A stretch of DNA of 64,000 nt, from contig NZ_BMKD01000001.1 in the NCBI RefSeq assembly GCF_014643835.1, positions 1,116,001 through 1,180,000 of the forward strand, given 5' to 3'. Each line of letters starts with the position of its first letter. Position 1 is the stretch's first letter. The position numbers and the translations under genes were made by a program. This DNA comes from Mucilaginibacter rubeus (GTDB lineage Bacteria > Bacteroidota > Bacteroidia > Sphingobacteriales > Sphingobacteriaceae). Below the pieces are notes generated by a model, which was not told where the DNA came from, ran no database searches, and saw only the letters and a list, made by a program, of their open reading frames with translations. This document shows positions 25,648-49,725 of the stretch, piece after piece.

Positions 25648-26016
25648 GGGGTCGACCGGAATTGACAGGATGGAGATAAGTAGGTAAGCATGCAGCGCGT
25701 TGGGTGAATTAGCGCTTTAATCTGAACGCTCAAACTTACAAATGGCGAAAATAACTACGCCTTAGCTGCCTAATTTAGAATTAGCATAGCTTTTGTCCCG
25801 CCGGTTTTCCGTTTCATCGGATCGGCAATCGGGGCATCGAAAGATGAAACTGGCCTGCTTAGGGTGTGATAAGCGGGTAAGATAAAGCACCTAAGGAAGA
25901 CGGTACAGGTAAGCGACTGACCTTCCCCTTCCCTACAATTAAACAGAAGCTAAGCATGTAGAAAGCTTACCTTATACCATGTTTGGACGAGGGTTCGAAT
26001 CCCTCCGGCTCCACCC
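25648..26016 (+). ncRNA. ssrA: tmRNA
   Basis: Starts GGGGUCG and ends CGGCUCC-A, which pair as the tRNA-like acceptor stem. The T arm GAGGGUUCGAAUCCCUC is present just upstream (~25989-26005). The tag frame reads GENNYALAA then TAA (25744-25773), the usual Bacteroidota degradation tag. It rescues stalled ribosomes with SmpB. Only CC of the CCA tail matches: the third base is C. The 3' end is also the presumed insertion site of the element to the right. Confidence 0.95.
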
Positions 26017-27527
26017 GAAGGGATTTTCTCAGGAAAATCCCTTTTTTTGTCTATTATCAACAACTCTTTATCTCTCATTATCAGCTCGTTATGTGCAAGA
26101 ACAGGTAACAGTGTAGGTGTTCGATAGATACCGTTTTTGTAGTACAAATTGCTGTCGAACACCTTAGAAACCAAAACTCTTTTCTCAATGGTATCAGACT
26201 GATTATAAATCGATTTCAGGTCTCCTAATTGATGTAGATGCTTCTTCAGAATTTTATAACCCTGATCCTGGTTCCGGGCATACCGCTCTATGTAAGCCTT
26301 AATTGTAAATATCTCGGTATTATAAGTTGACGACCAACGTTCATACGTGTCACGACCGATTTGATTACTAATCCATTTTTCTTCCACTGAATGTAGTTTT
26401 TCTTCGAGTGTTGCCAGCTCTGATTTCTTATGGTCAATGGTTTCCCGTTGTTCTTTGAGCCTGTTTTCTAACGATTCATCAGCAGTGTTTTTGATCCTGT
26501 TAATTTGCTCGCTGGACAGGCTGATATACTCAAGGATTTGTTGAAACTTATCGTGGGCCTTAATCGCACTTATATTATTATGCTTCGAATGTTTGCATTT
26601 ATAGTAATAGTACCAGTTGCCGGCTTTTCCCCTGGACGGAGCACCGCTGAGTGGTTGACCGCAGTGGCATTTAAGAATACCCCTTAATGGCATTTCATCG
26701 CTTAATGTTTTTTTACTTCTATCCGGCTTTTCCAATTTCTGCTGAACGATCTGCCAGGTCATTTTGTCAATTAGCGGCTCATGCCGGGCAGGAAATAAGC
26801 CTCCGGGATGTTCTTTGAACGGTTTCGCGCGCACCATTCCTGCGTATACAGGGTTGGCCAAAAGTTTCTCGACCGCAGAATTTCCTCTTCTGTTGAAACC
26901 CATCGTTTTCGATTGCTCTTTGATGATTACCAAAGGAACATCTCTCAAAAAGGATTGATATATAAAGTGTACCACTTTGGCTTGCTCCTCATCTATTTCG
27001 AGCGTTCGATCTTTTCCTTCTCCAACTTTTCGATATCCAAAAGGAGGCAGGTTACTAAGGAAGCGCCCTTCCTTAGCTCTGGCAGTATAGTTTCCGCCCC
27101 GGATTTTAATACTTCGGTTGATATTATCTTCCTCCGCAAGTAACAGTTGTAAACCTGTTCTGAAATAGCTGCCCGGAGTGTCGTAGTCGAAGATTATGCC
27201 CTCAGTAACGCTCACTATCTGAATACGATATTGCCGCTGATAATTTTTAACGAGCGTCATTGCCTCTCCCGCATCCCGGCTGAAGCGATCTAACTGATCT
27301 ACGATCAAGTAATCAACGTGCCCCTGATGCTTTTTAATAAATTCCTGAAGCTTTTTAAAGTCAGGCCGGTCGAAAGTCTTGGCACTATGTCCCCTATCTA
27401 TGAAAGTATCCACGAGTAGAACATTGTTATTATTGACCCACTGATCGGTATACAGCTCCTGACGTTCGATTGAGCCATTGCTTTGTCCTAAATGACTAAA
27501 TCGTAAATATCTAATTGCCCGTTTCAT
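25950..27527 (-). CDS. Large serine recombinase, 3' end inside tmRNA
   Basis: 525 aa. Resolvase domain ~1-150 (YLRFSHLGQSNGSIERQ with presumed nucleophile Ser11; LIVDQLDRFSRD), recombinase domain ~165-270 (FGYRKVGEG...), zinc ribbon ~285-325 (LKCHCGQPLSG...YYYYKCKH), then a coiled coil (~340-400). Such enzymes integrate and excise mobile elements. The last ~22 codons (from GGAGGIRTLVQTWYK on) are the antisense of the tmRNA 3' end, so the reading frame crosses the attachment junction and would change on excision. It is divergent in type from the tyrosine integrases that usually target tmRNA. Confidence 0.93.
   Translation of the reverse strand: MKRAIRYLRFSHLGQSNGSIERQELYTDQWVNNNNVLLVDTFIDRGHSAKTFDRPDFKKLQEFIKKHQGHVDYLIVDQLDRFSRDAGEAMTLVKNYQRQYRIQIVSVTEGIIFDYDTPGSYFRTGLQLLLAEEDNINRSIKIRGGNYTARAKEGRFLSNLPPFGYRKVGEGKDRTLEIDEEQAKVVHFIYQSFLRDVPLVIIKEQSKTMGFNRRGNSAVEKLLANPVYAGMVRAKPFKEHPGGLFPARHEPLIDKMTWQIVQQKLEKPDRSKKTLSDEMPLRGILKCHCGQPLSGAPSRGKAGNWYYYYKCKHSKHNNISAIKAHDKFQQILEYISLSSEQINRIKNTADESLENRLKEQRETIDHKKSELATLEEKLHSVEEKWISNQIGRDTYERWSSTYNTEIFTIKAYIERYARNQDQGYKILKKHLHQLGDLKSIYNQSDTIEKRVLVSKVFDSNLYYKNGIYRTPTLLPVLAHNELIMRDKELLIIDKKRDFPEKIPSGGAGGIRTLVQTWYKVSFLHA
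26019..26048 (+). terminator. tmRNA terminator
   Basis: AGGGATTTTC (26019-26028), loop TCAG, GAAAATCCCT (26033-26042), then a run of T. Strong Rho-independent terminator. It is placed within the 3' part of the recombinase gene on the other strand. Confidence 0.8.
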
Positions 27528-46125: not shown

Positions 46126-46410
46126 TCAGAAACTGACCGCCTTGATATATTCAACAGATTCATCCCTGGCAAGGTTAAACAGGTCTTTAAGGGACACACC
46201 ACCAGAAGCTATTACGGGAGATTCTGTTCTTAAGGCAGCCGGTTCATCTTGCACCATGTGTACCGGCTCATCATCAGGAATAAAAGTAAGTTCCTGTTTA
46301 TCATCGGGATGTCCGGTGTGTTTGGCCCGGAAAAGGTCCCATAAAATCAGGATTGCATAATAGCAGGTATAGATACCTAATAACCAAACGGTAAATTTTA
46401 TCCAGTTCAT
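46126..46410 (-). CDS. Single-pass membrane protein, 94 aa
   Basis: Not recognised. One N-terminal helix (WIKFTVWLLGIYTCYYAILILWDLF), then an acidic, disordered linker and a short amphipathic helix (SLKDLFNLARDESVEYIKA). Positioned where traD lies in related elements. The ATG overlaps the stop of the next gene upstream by 4 bp. Confidence 0.6.
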   Translation of the reverse strand: MNWIKFTVWLLGIYTCYYAILILWDLFRAKHTGHPDDKQELTFIPDDEPVHMVQDEPAALRTESPVIASGGVSLKDLFNLARDESVEYIKAVSF

Positions 46411-46802
46411 AACATTGTATTTTGCATGTAATTCCGGATCACTGTGATCAGTTCCGGTTGGGTTTCAAAAAGATGATCAACAGCGAATGCGATCAGTTTG
46501 CTCATATCTACTTTGGTGGCCAGCTTGAATTTATTAAGCCTTTCGACGGTCAGTTTATCAAACCTGACGTGGACAAGATTCCTGTTTTTGCTGTTGTCGT
46601 ATCGATATAGGGTGCGAAGGATACTGCCATCATCAGGTATTATCAAGTCGTCCGGCAGGATGCGGGGCGCCTTCTTGTCATATTCCCCGGTTGATGCTCC
46701 GGGATCAGGAGCTGGTTTGGATTTCATATTTTTTTCTATCAGGGCGCTTCGAACAGCAATCCAGCTACCCAATAGGATTAACCCTGTTTTAACATATTTC
46801 AT
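46407..46802 (-). CDS. DUF3408-like RHH protein, copy 2
   Basis: 131 aa. The N-terminus is hydrophobic (VKTGLILLGSWIAVRSALI), unusual for the family. The C-terminal ~75 residues read as a ribbon-helix-helix: strand NLVHVRFDKL, helix TVERLNKFKLA, turn, helix DMSKLIAFAVDHLF. It is a paralogue of the next gene upstream (LMEYDNS/LYRYDNS; NKFKIATGVDV/NKFKLATKVDM; FVAFAVRHLI/LIAFAVDHLF). With the membrane segment it could tether DNA to the membrane (inference). Confidence 0.7.
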   Translation of the reverse strand: MKYVKTGLILLGSWIAVRSALIEKNMKSKPAPDPGASTGEYDKKAPRILPDDLIIPDDGSILRTLYRYDNSKNRNLVHVRFDKLTVERLNKFKLATKVDMSKLIAFAVDHLFETQPELITVIRNYMQNTML

Positions 46803-47158
46803 AAACTTGAATTTTGAATAAACTGTTTAATTACTGTTTTTAGCTCAGGATTATTGCTGATCAAATGCCTGACAGCGAAAGCCACAAACCTGGTGACGTC
46901 AACGCCTGTAGCTATTTTGAATTTATTGATAAAGTCGGCAGACTCCTTATCCAGCCTGAAATGAACCATTGTTTTATGATCGCTGTTATCATACTCCATT
47001 AGTTCGGTTAATATTGGGCTGCGAATTGTTCTTTCCCTCTTGGCAGTGGCCTTTTTTGATGGCTCAGTTTCAGTTTTTTTTGCCTCGGCCGTGGCTTTCT
47101 CCGCAGTTTTTGCCATTTGCTCGCGGAGTTGGCTGGCTAAAGATTTCATTTTTTCCAT
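46799..47158 (-). CDS. DUF3408-like RHH protein, copy 1
   Basis: 119 aa. N-terminal basic coiled region (KMKSLASQLREQMAKTAEKATAEAKKTE), then RHH region: KTMVHFRLDKESADFINKFKIATGVDVTRFVAFAVRHLI. Next to a ParA-like ATPase, an RHH protein is the usual partner (ParB-like centromere binder) in type Ib and delta/omega partition. This is the TraB/TraC place in CTnDOT-like operons, where function is unknown. It overlaps the ParA-like gene by 13 bp. Confidence 0.75.
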   Translation of the reverse strand: MEKMKSLASQLREQMAKTAEKATAEAKKTETEPSKKATAKRERTIRSPILTELMEYDNSDHKTMVHFRLDKESADFINKFKIATGVDVTRFVAFAVRHLISNNPELKTVIKQFIQNSSL

Positions 47159-47772
47159 AGGCGGTCTGCAAATATTTCTTCGAGAACCGGAGCTATAACC
47201 GGGTACAGGGACAATGGCATCTGAAAAGTTGTAATGCGCTGGAAATCGATCTTGTCGGGCAAGGGCCGCGTGATCCTGCCAAATTTCGAGAGCTGTTCAT
47301 TAACCTCCGACATGATCTCAAATTTGACGTTGGCCTTGATACGGTTCGGAATAAAAACCACATCGATTTTAGGGTTCACTTTTTTTATAACTACGGTAAA
47401 CAGCACTGTAGATTCAAAAGTAAATTCTTCATATGCGAATGGGCAAATCACCATATCCGCGGATTTGAACACCGGAAGGAGACCATCATCATCCAGTTTG
47501 CCGGGCAGGTCGATCAATATTGCGTCATTCTTGCTTTTCGTAAGCACGGGGCTCAGCATGGGAAAAGTCTCCAGCGTCGAAGGGATTACTTCATATGGTT
47601 CCGCATTCTCAAGGACTTTCGCCTTTTCGTATTTCTGTGAAACTGACTGCTGATAATCCATGTCAATTATAGTGACCGGCCATTGTTTAGCCAGGCTCAG
47701 GTAATTTCCTGACAGAACGGTAAGCGTACTTTTTCCAACGCCTCCTTTTTGGTTTCCGAATAAACATATCAT
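47146..47772 (-). CDS. traA: ParA/MinD-family ATPase TraA
   Basis: 208 aa. Deviant Walker A near the N-terminus: FGNQKGGVGKSTLTVLSG with both Lys; Walker A' IDMDYQQS; switch II ILIDLPGKLDDDG. It lacks the N-terminal DNA-binding extension of type Ia ParA. Length and short form match partition ATPases such as delta. It lies just after mobB and just before the RHH genes. Confidence 0.87.
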   Translation of the reverse strand: MICLFGNQKGGVGKSTLTVLSGNYLSLAKQWPVTIIDMDYQQSVSQKYEKAKVLENAEPYEVIPSTLETFPMLSPVLTKSKNDAILIDLPGKLDDDGLLPVFKSADMVICPFAYEEFTFESTVLFTVVIKKVNPKIDVVFIPNRIKANVKFEIMSEVNEQLSKFGRITRPLPDKIDFQRITTFQMPLSLYPVIAPVLEEIFADRLWKK

Positions 47773-47807: not shown

Positions 47808-48803
47808 TCAGCGCGTATTTACCCTCGCCTTTTTCATCCTCCTGCGTTTCATTCCCAGTACCTGTTGATCATCAACATCGTCAGCGATTATAATGGGGCC
47901 GATCAGGCCCTCAACAGAAGTATATTCGCTGTAATAGCCAGGCTCTCCATCATATGGATGACTATCTTCCCTGAAATCCGGGGCAATTAACGGGGGTGTG
48001 TGATTCGCGCAACTTTCCAGCAGCAACTTAAGACTGAGGATCTCGCTGCCCTTAAAAACCTGTTTGGTGCGGTGGTCAATGACTGTATATCCATAAGGCT
48101 TTTTGCCTTCCGACGAATGAAAGATAAGATCAACATTATATGTCTCCTTCATGACCCGGATAAAATCCCCTTTGTATTTTTCCGAATTAAAAAGTGTTTT
48201 GAGTGCTTCGATCCGTTCTCTATCAGGGACGTACTTATCGATCTTTCGTTGCAGCTTATCTTTATCGCGGTAGTCACGGCCAAGCAATCCGCTATTCTCC
48301 AGGATCATGTAAAACTGGGCTATTGTACTAAAACGATATTGTAAAGCGAAGGTATAACCGAGCACCTTGTCGATACTTTTTAACGCCCTGTCACGTTCAA
48401 AATCGCGATTGATCTGTATGCCGTTTTTATCAATCCTGGAGCTGACCATATGTACATGATTATTGTTGGTGTCCTTATGAAAAACGACGAGATAGGGCTG
48501 ATTGCCGTAGCCCATCTCCTTCAGCCACATTTCTGCCGTCTTTGTGAGCTCATGTTTATCATAATTTCGCCCTGACGCGGAAATCACGGCGTGAAACTGC
48601 GTGTTCTTCTTTACCCTGGTGTTTTGGGAGGAAATCATCAATAGGTAATTGATCAAATCCTGTGGGCGCGGATGGTTCAATCCCTGTAATGCACCAAAGT
48701 TGGCTTTCAACATCAGTTCTCCCCTGTTCAGGTCCATTTTATCTGTGTTATACCGGACTCCTGCAAAAGTCATCGAAGGTTTCTCAAGAATATGTGCGAT
48801 CAT
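47808..48803 (-). CDS. mobB: Relaxase MobB (MOBP-type)
   Basis: 331 aa from ATG 48803 (MIAHILEKPS); a frame 36 bp longer is less likely. Relaxase signatures: Tyr in FAGVRYNTDKM, NTQFHAVISASGRNYD, and the metal-binding NNNHVHMVSSRID (HxH). It nicks oriT and pilots the strand. Usual length for Bacteroidota MobB. It is separated from mobA by a 418-bp repeat array, whereas the two genes are normally tightly coupled. Confidence 0.88.
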   Translation of the reverse strand: MIAHILEKPSMTFAGVRYNTDKMDLNRGELMLKANFGALQGLNHPRPQDLINYLLMISSQNTRVKKNTQFHAVISASGRNYDKHELTKTAEMWLKEMGYGNQPYLVVFHKDTNNNHVHMVSSRIDKNGIQINRDFERDRALKSIDKVLGYTFALQYRFSTIAQFYMILENSGLLGRDYRDKDKLQRKIDKYVPDRERIEALKTLFNSEKYKGDFIRVMKETYNVDLIFHSSEGKKPYGYTVIDHRTKQVFKGSEILSLKLLLESCANHTPPLIAPDFREDSHPYDGEPGYYSEYTSVEGLIGPIIIADDVDDQQVLGMKRRRMKKARVNTR

Positions 48804-48833: not shown

Positions 48834-49182
48834 GATCAAAAGAACAGCCGATCACTTCGTCACTTTAACAGGAGATCATGCTATCAGCTCTGCCTAACTG
48901 ATGATCACGGGATCAACCGATCATGATATTAAATGACCAGCTTAACGGAAAATCATGCTATTAGTGGCTCTGCCTAACGTACGATCAACAGATCATTCGA
49001 TCTTGATAACAAATGTGCTCACGATCATCATAACTGGCGATCAATCCATCAAAAGATCGGCTGATCTGCTGCGTATGCGATCTTCCGATCAGCTTATCTT
49101 CGGAACATGTGAACCAAAGAACCGGATATCACCATATCTTTGGAGCAGCATATCAACCAATCATCAGATCGTGATATCTGAT
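48834..49182. repeat. Tandem octamer array, consensus GATCANNN
   Basis: Units of exactly 8 bp fill the mobA-mobB intergenic gap. GATC occurs at 48834, 48850, 48874, 48903, 48911, 48919, 48983, 48991, 48999, 49023, 49039, 49055, 49063, 49079, 49087 and 49167. Of 15 intervals, all but one (29) are multiples of 8. In-between units keep the same phase with TATC, AATC, CATC, GAAC or TAAC at their start, so position 4 is nearly always C. A 5-base slip at 48898-48902 splits the array into ~8 and ~35 units. It has no coding potential (8 is not a multiple of 3). It looks like a cooperative binding array for a protein such as an RHH factor. Confidence 0.9.
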
Positions 49183-49220: not shown

Positions 49221-49631
49221 CTAACGTCCCATAGCCCTGATGATTTTTCGGAAGGTAGCCTCCAGCACCTGCTGAACTTTAATATAATCATTAAACAGGT
49301 AGTTAAACCGGTCGACAATCAAGGGATCCAGCTGGCCTTTCAGGTTGAGGACATTGGCATGCTTTGCCAGTTGATTAATATTATTGCCAATACGTCCCAT
49401 TTCGGCCCCCACATCATCAAGGTATTTGATAAGCACCCTGGAATTGACGACTATTTTCTGAGTATCAGCCAGGACGCGCATTCTGATAAGCTCCGTTCTT
49501 GATAAGCCCAATTGCTGCTCCAGTTCGACAATTTCCTTAAACTCATCCTCTGTAAACCTGACGTTGATAAACTTAGTCCGCTTCCCCTCTTTCACAGTTG
49601 GGCGCCCCATCAGTTTCTTTAACTCAACCAT
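49221..49631 (-). CDS. mobA: Relaxosome accessory protein MobA (RHH)
   Basis: 136 aa. N-terminal ribbon-helix-helix: TKFINVRFTEDEFKEIVELEQQLGLSRTELIRMRVLA, then an antiparallel helical pair (GAEMGRIGNNINQLAKHAN...). It is a Bacteroidota MobA/MobC-like protein that binds oriT and loads the relaxase. It starts about 28 bp downstream of the candidate oriT hairpins and sits directly next to the octamer array. Confidence 0.87.
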   Translation of the reverse strand: MVELKKLMGRPTVKEGKRTKFINVRFTEDEFKEIVELEQQLGLSRTELIRMRVLADTQKIVVNSRVLIKYLDDVGAEMGRIGNNINQLAKHANVLNLKGQLDPLIVDRFNYLFNDYIKVQQVLEATFRKIIRAMGR

Positions 49632-49659: not shown

Positions 49660-49725
49660 ATCCTCCCGGGAGGGCAAGAGACTTTTTGTGTAACAAAAAG
49701 ACATCTTGCCGTTGAAAAAACAACG
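49660..49725 (+). other. Candidate origin of transfer (oriT)
   Basis: An inverted repeat with outer arms GCAAG/CTTGC and inner arms CTTTTTGT/ACAAAAAG (49674-49689 and 49693-49709). It contains CATCTTG|CC (49702-49710), which fits the MOBP nic consensus YATCYTG|C (RP4 TATCCTG|CC). A 12-bp palindrome CCTCCCGGGAGG lies at 49662-49673 and GTTG/CAAC arms follow at 49711-49724. Position upstream of mobA is where oriT is found in related elements. The nick would be near 49708/49709. Confidence 0.6.

Follow-up and report, generated by a model that had tools for sequence, protein, structure and literature searches.

In this work we describe a phased array of short DNA boxes in Mucilaginibacter rubeus that is probably a centromere-like site for a ParA-like ATPase, TraA, and its small partner protein, TraB, which are encoded nearby. 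The array lies between mobA and mobB in a 64,000-nucleotide stretch of contig NZ_BMKD01000001.1 (the whole of which is referred to here as the window), within a putative integrative conjugative element in this Bacteroidota genome and beside DNA resembling an origin of transfer (oriT). Judged by sequence, structural modeling, and analogy, the arrangement would be of type Ib, as in ParF-ParG-parH and delta-omega-parS: a small ParA/Walker ATPase gene adjoins the gene for a partner, an array of phased boxes lies near these genes, and the partner is a ribbon-helix-helix (RHH) protein by prediction. This reading is based on the phased array itself, its recurrence in related elements with changing words, its closer association with traA-traB than with mobA-mobB, and, for TraB, the predicted fold and the way in which the array word diverges along with this protein. 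By analogy with the known systems, we infer that TraB would bind the array and stimulate the ATPase, and that DNA would be moved as a result.

A preliminary description of this DNA reported sixteen GATC sites in about 340 bp, with 14 of the 15 successive intervals being multiples of 8 and the remaining one being 29, and all of these numbers were reproduced (GATC starts at 48834, 48850, 48874, 48903, 48911, 48919, 48983, 48991, 48999, 49023, 49039, 49055, 49063, 49079, 49087, and 49167). The one or two sites said to be expected by chance hold for the composition of the window, which predicts from 1.2 (Markov model) to 2.0 (observed rate) per 349 bp, but not for the dinucleotides of the stretch itself, which gave a mean of 5.0 and a maximum of 17 in 5,000 simulations. 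The count is within the range of these simulations, and it is the phase that is striking, with 13 sites sharing one phase compared to a maximum of 6 in the same simulations. Chance had been called an implausible origin, and the phasing is in fact stronger than was claimed, as it extends to 35 in-phase units in which an A, a C two bases later, and a G or T preceding the A are each found 32 times. Based on these column counts, GATCANNN was replaced as the unit by K-A-W-C plus four looser bases. The autocorrelation that had been suggested as a check gave z values of 6.4 to 9.2 at all lags from 8 and 16 up to 56, the column score of the array stretch was high for period 8 (z of 31.8) and not for period 7 (z of 0.29), and the highest-scoring 350-bp stretches for period 8 in the whole window all fall in the array. 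Tandem Repeats Finder called no repeat at the array, for which reason an ordinary tandem repeat was rejected; the position of the boxes is conserved rather than the identity of a repeat, and the bases between the boxes are looser. The phase break at the 29-bp interval, a 32-bp stretch minus 3 bp, arises because the two copies of a segment duplicated within the array differ by a 3-bp gap. The array is placed between the two mob genes because the relaxase most likely starts at the ATG at 48803, as indicated by alignment.

The same rhythm recurs, with other words, in related elements. The first scan covered the window and 86 fetched loci, of which L007 to L086 are the best 80 of 198 confirmed relatives, and used a period score, a chi-square value that serves for ranking and was calibrated on control stretches located downstream within the same loci, with thresholds fixed after the first scans. 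Among the 79 of 87 loci that remained after the removal of near-identical ones (<95% MobB identity retained; L015, L061, L063 to L067, and L073 removed), 43 had a period-8 score of at least 6 upstream of mobB, compared to none of the 76 control stretches. The preliminary description had named a lack of conserved 8-bp phasing in homologous elements as grounds for refutation, and this result bears its claim out. Period 7 discriminates less well (8 of 79 loci upstream of mobB versus 2 of 76 control stretches, with a score of 6.3 even in the array-free L160), and period 9 rides on codon structure (8 of 79 versus 15 of 76); period 11 was found once upstream and in no control, and period 13 was found in neither. 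What is not conserved is GATC, which had been put forward as the feature itself: the words of the relatives include GATC/GATA, GTTAT, GCTGTC, GCTAATAG, ATAGCT, GTTA, GCTGT, and GCTAA. In Bacteroides fragilis pBFY46 (L003), the mobA-mobB gap contains TATTRTNN units, and in plasmids of Mucilaginibacter and Pedobacter (L001 and L004), units of the ATAG and TATA types are found in phase on the upstream side of mobA. As a side observation, these two plasmids have a common block upstream of mobA (4960 to 5080 in L001 and 5170 to 5290 in L004) with GGCAGCCAGTTTTGGC and facing CAGGCAG/CTGCCTG repeats. The array can lie in the mobA-mobB gap, upstream of mobA, or beside traA, and a gap that carries it is not unusual, contrary to the suggestion that such a gap is normally absent between these genes.

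Arrays of 7 bp adjoin mobA or mobB in L002, L056, L076, and L083, and in some relatives 15-bp versions are found in this place, in which two boxes seem to face each other, for example, GAAC..GTTC in L026. Coding DNA raises the period-15 score (maximum of 9.9 in controls), so 15-bp arrays were counted only at a score of at least 11, which holds for L025, L026, L030, L032, and L073. L027, L028, L029, and L039 appear 15-bp-like by eye, with scores that are not above the control maximum. Period-7 signals distant from both mob genes were also seen in L025, L028, L029, L048, and L050, where they lie upstream of mobB by roughly 2.2 to 4.1 kb.

The array accompanies the ParA module better than the mobilization genes, with exceptions that are discussed below. 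Detection of ParA and TraB relied on hidden Markov models built from the first set of loci, which diverged members may escape. The order of ParA followed by the RHH gene was found in 82 of the 84 loci long enough to show it. Of 74 nonredundant loci with both genes, 45 exceed the threshold for a 7- or 8-bp period; two of these, L025 and L029, do so through the far-upstream period-7 signal, although in L025 a 15-bp array adjoins mobB in addition. The number rises to 51 of 74 with the addition of L026, L030, and L032 (15 bp) and of L055, L060, and L070, whose short 8-bp arrays score above every control.

A second set of loci was drawn from the MobB family NF041325 (L126 to L165, 40 of 56 listed places). 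All 17 loci of the classical type (L126 to L141 above the family cut-off and L142 below it) have a period-8 array, with scores of 6.6 to 25.5. ParA was detected in 15 of them, and the array is found beside a divergent traA start in 14 (L126 to L131 and L133 to L140) and precedes parA in L142. None of the 21 mobA-mobB loci without a detected ParA (L143 to L149 and L151 to L164, all below the cut-off) has an array, the maximum score being 4.4; the missing array of L155, which has just 0.5 kb of DNA upstream of mobB, is weak evidence. The two remaining loci below the cut-off, L150 and L165, have a lone ParA and the highest scores of the 23 array-poor loci there (5.0 and 5.5), located beside that ParA. 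The short 8-bp arrays in question lie at about 5100 to 5200 in L150 (reverse complement) and at about 4560 to 4610 in L165, and no tra genes were detected in these two loci. A detected ParA was thus found in 15 of 17 array loci compared to 2 of 23 others (Fisher P of 4e-7, to be read with the relatedness of the loci in mind). This presence/absence test is confounded, because array status tracks the NF041325 cut-off and, with it, the relaxase subfamily.

Covariation points to TraB as the probable reader of the array. For 37 loci (42 array loci minus L031, L036, L048, and L077, which lack ParA/TraB in the fetched DNA, and minus one near-duplicate), the divergence of the array word correlated with that of TraB (Mantel correlation of 0.505), and the correlation survived control for MobA, MobB, or ParA. 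MobA, NikA/MobC-like and encoded beside the array in the window, might instead have read the array as an extended oriT. However, its correlation with the word was -0.252 when TraB was controlled in the same 37 loci and 0.034 (P of 0.35) within the window's group, the MobA-MobB loci without a detected ParA are without arrays, and the conserved oriT-like repeat beside mobA is a better site for this protein. MobA is therefore disfavored as a reader, and we consider this explanation very improbable even though the correlation of the word with MobA (0.631) is as high as that with TraB (0.607) in a subset of 15 loci that excludes the window's group. Of the binders named in the preliminary description, the evidence favors the DUF3408-like proteins and TraA and speaks against MobA.

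In the predicted structure of TraB, residues 59 to 115 match Arc, CopG, omega, and other RHH chains in fold and are preceded by a stretch of low confidence, and TraB is thus predicted to be an RHH protein whose N-terminal tail is flexible. The TraB profile had three sequence matches in the PDB, among them ParG, albeit a weak one (E of 0.11). In Pfam, neither TraB protein of the window had a match at an E value of 0.001, DUF3408 (PF11888) included. The protein located beside ParA in classical loci is DUF3408 (E of 3.6e-38 in L126 and 2.8e-35 in L135), the pBFY46 counterpart gave an E of 6.4e-4 with this family, below the cut-off, and an hhalign comparison of TraB with the L126 DUF3408 protein was weak (E of 0.034, probability of 1.5%).

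In the mechanism that we propose, dimers of TraB (TraB1 and perhaps TraB2) would occupy adjacent 8-bp boxes, each box taking one dimer, until the approximately 40 boxes of the mobA-mobB gap are coated at a distance of some 0.5 kb from the oriT-like repeat, and their N-terminal tails would engage TraA. There is about an even chance, in our estimation, that the complex positions the oriT region or the relaxosome for transfer, as VirC1/VirC2 do at overdrive; this role is suggested because the three components lie in the tra region near oriT-like DNA. Segregation of the excised circle or plasmid is a less probable task, and transfer and partition may both be true.

Several observations weigh against the centromere-like reading or parts of it. 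The AlphaFold confidence for TraB is moderate (mean pLDDT of 74), and the PDB sequence and fold scores are individually weak. No array was found, by the thresholds used, in 23 of the 74 nonredundant loci with ParA and RHH genes, mostly from Algoriphagus and Cyclobacterium, in some of which inspection by eye does show short stretches of period 8, and L006, in which ParA is followed by a protein unmatched by the RHH model, is without an array as well. Arrays are present in each of the 16 loci above the NF041325 cut-off, also in the two without a detected ParA, and with the exception of L142 the loci below it, 23 in number, are array poor or array free. Arrays without a detected ParA are present in L048, L132, and L141. 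In L132, a gene that by eye is transposase-like occupies the expected place of traA; in L048, the array is about 1.2 kb upstream of mobB, other genes follow mobB, and no ParA/TraB was found within the 6.9 kb following it. The 8-bp arrays of L048 and L141 (7400 to 7640) lie beside the relaxase and are possibly hitchhikers on the TraA-TraB of another element or remnants. In the 15 loci outside the window's group, finally, TraB and MobA are inseparable, and it is ParA that correlates best with the word (0.711), a correlation that survives control for TraB (0.502), with TraB itself failing the control for ParA (-0.211).

How far the array serves partition alone is also to be weighed. A triad that merely keeps an excised replicating circle or a plasmid in daughter cells, with no role in transfer, would have the anatomy of type Ib partition described in published accounts, and phased boxes directly before the parA start, as seen in L142 and L165, would suit it. 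Partition stays a serious rival because the gene table of pBFY46, which is incomplete, shows no ParA besides that of TraA, which speaks for partition over transfer in this element. However, the genes are found in the tra region of both integrated elements and plasmids, oriT-like DNA is nearby, and L001, L002, and L004 have an additional ParA gene, so that we regard partition on its own as possible but doubtful. Alternatively, the array could be an operator on which TraB or another RHH protein represses or activates transcription of mobB or traA. Omega parS arrays are reported to overlap promoters, classical loci place the array in the gap before the divergent traA, and NAH7 ParB is described as activating transfer genes from parS (PMC12421886). 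Yet some 40 boxes are far above the usual need of an operator, and the array has no fixed position relative to a start codon, being about 1.8 kb upstream of mobB in some loci, which makes an operator improbable. Least probable of all is a function of GATC itself, through Dam methylation or restriction, or of RNA structure in the mobA-mobB transcript. The 16 GATC sites would fit the former, and the mob-strand RNA does fold better than 99 of 100 shuffles (z of -2.73), but GATC is self-complementary, which in itself favors pairing, and arrays are also present in divergent gaps. GATC was ruled out as the functional unit, given that relatives hold the beat with other words. Tandem sites for an RHH protein, as the preliminary description had proposed, remain the best reading of the 8-bp phasing.

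Among known systems, parFGH of TP228 (ParF ATPase, ParG RHH protein, and parH centromere) likewise pairs a ParA-like ATPase gene with that of a small RHH protein that has a flexible tail at its N terminus; here, in contrast, the genes are in a conjugation region, the array is beside mob genes, the words vary by element, and the ParG match is weak, as given above. The 8-bp tandem spacing is that of the met boxes, the operators to which dimers of the RHH protein MetJ bind, but word and gene context differ, and nothing in the window points to MetJ. VirC2 of Agrobacterium has an RHH fold, and overdrive is a short sequence, not 40 boxes. TraA of the window has no match to VirC1 (PF07015) in Pfam at an E value of 0.001; its matches are AAA_31, CbiA, MipZ, and ParA. 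According to PMC8716806 and PMC4949242, VirC1/VirC2 are a ParA-like ATPase and its partner that act at a site by the relaxase cleavage site and promote relaxosome assembly and docking to the type IV secretion system. In the delta-omega-parS system of pSM19035, as described in PMC9499535, every short tandem box is bound by one RHH dimer, full ATPase activation takes a minimum of four contiguous boxes, and each site has 7 to 10 copies of a 7-bp WATCACW heptad. The window has 8-bp GWTM boxes in about 40 copies, and its period and word differ from those of the omega-type WATCACW repeats; the few relatives with 7-bp arrays are closer in this respect. NAH7 ParB/ParR and parS are type I partition proteins and sites near transfer genes, the proteins having been shown to raise conjugation (PMC12421886), with single 18-bp inverted repeats in place of a phased array. 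Gonococcal ParA/ParB and R1 ParM/ParR have also been linked to conjugation or DNA secretion in published work, and the comparison literature further comprises PMC5016525, PMC7308502, and PMC12857230.

Table 1 lists the features of the window. On the minus strand, the order is rteC, a primase gene, mobA, the array, mobB, traA, a pair of small genes for RHH-like proteins, a small gene whose product begins with a hydrophobic stretch, and tra genes. The inverted repeat upstream of mobA is conserved in relatives and is a candidate oriT for the family.

TABLE 1 Array blocks, transfer genes, and putative oriT of the window
Feature	Position	Strand	Basis
Main array, 35 consecutive 8-bp units, K-A-W-C on the plus strand (GWTM on the mob strand) plus four looser bases	48896..49175		Unit count, period-8 z
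Second, shorter array block in another phase; GATC at 48834, 48850, and 48874 with GAAC and TAAC units between	48834..48877		GATC positions, phase
Copy 1 of segment duplicated within array, 3 bp shorter than copy 2	48874..48907	+	Copy comparison
Copy 2 of duplicated segment, phase kept	48951..48987	+	Copy comparison
mobA, NikA/MobC-like relaxosome accessory protein	49221..49631	-	PF21983 E 7.9e-14, PF05713 E 2.9e-07
mobB, relaxase, 331 aa	47808..48803	-	ATG start by alignment, not TTG 48839
traA, ParA-like ATPase (KGGVGKST), proposed partner of array-binding protein	47146..47772	-	NF041546 E 9.5e-17, under curated cut-off
traB1, RHH-like, conserved N-terminal helix and variable linker, proposed array reader	46799..47158	-	Predicted fold, covariation
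traB2, second traB-type protein	46407..46802	-	Gene list, comparison with relatives
Small protein, N-terminal hydrophobic stretch, third gene of traA-traB module in relatives	46126..46410	-	Gene list, relatives
oriT-like inverted repeat GCAAGATGTCTTTTTGT..ACAAAAAGTCTCTTGC, directly upstream of mobA	49674..49709	-	Motif in 57/86 loci (L078 probably by chance)

The closest relatives found for the relaxase are from Mucilaginibacter, and the window protein is without much of the C-terminal part seen in plasmid relatives of about 500 amino acids. A tandem duplication of traB is present in the window, L007, L009 to L012, and L026, with a single traB in most other relatives. A small protein with a hydrophobic N terminus is encoded downstream of TraB in most loci (model matches in 81 of 87) and is a possible membrane tether for TraA-TraB. 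Elsewhere in the window, a large serine recombinase gene (minus strand, 25648 to 27527 region) and the tmRNA gene share the final 67 bases of the latter, near position 25.9 kb, which suggests that the element integrated at ssrA; a search of the window for another copy of the terminal 27 tmRNA bases, allowing up to 3 mismatches, found none, and Rfam searches of the window at gathering scores returned only the tmRNA and one tRNA. No MobB relatives were found among viral contigs, a megablast search of traG against phages gave no match, and query A1 matched 8 of 395 genomes of the phylum at an E value of 1e-30.

To our knowledge, how the DNA of Bacteroidota elements finds the transfer channel has been little studied. 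The component parts described here are of known kinds; what may be new is their arrangement, a dedicated, rapidly diverging RHH-type centromere array common in Bacteroidota conjugation modules, of which we found no account in the open-access literature searched. We tentatively propose that the triad of ParA, RHH protein, and centromere is a working part of the conjugation apparatus across Bacteroidota elements, in which a fast-evolving array with a 7-, 8-, or 15-bp beat, matched to its own TraB, would mark the DNA beside oriT and TraA would deliver it to the transfer machine, with the differing codes as a possible identity tag by which one element rather than another would be chosen for transport. 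If this is true, traA and traB, so far annotated in the records examined just as ParA family and DUF3408 or hypothetical proteins, would acquire both a function and a target on the DNA, and the approximately forty pairs of word and TraB that nature provides would be a ready set for working out the rules of DNA recognition by RHH proteins. Sequence-based distinction of self-transferable from mobilizable elements may also be aided by the array. These elements move genes among Bacteroidota, and the recurring, differently lettered arrays may reveal the way in which their DNA reaches the transfer apparatus.
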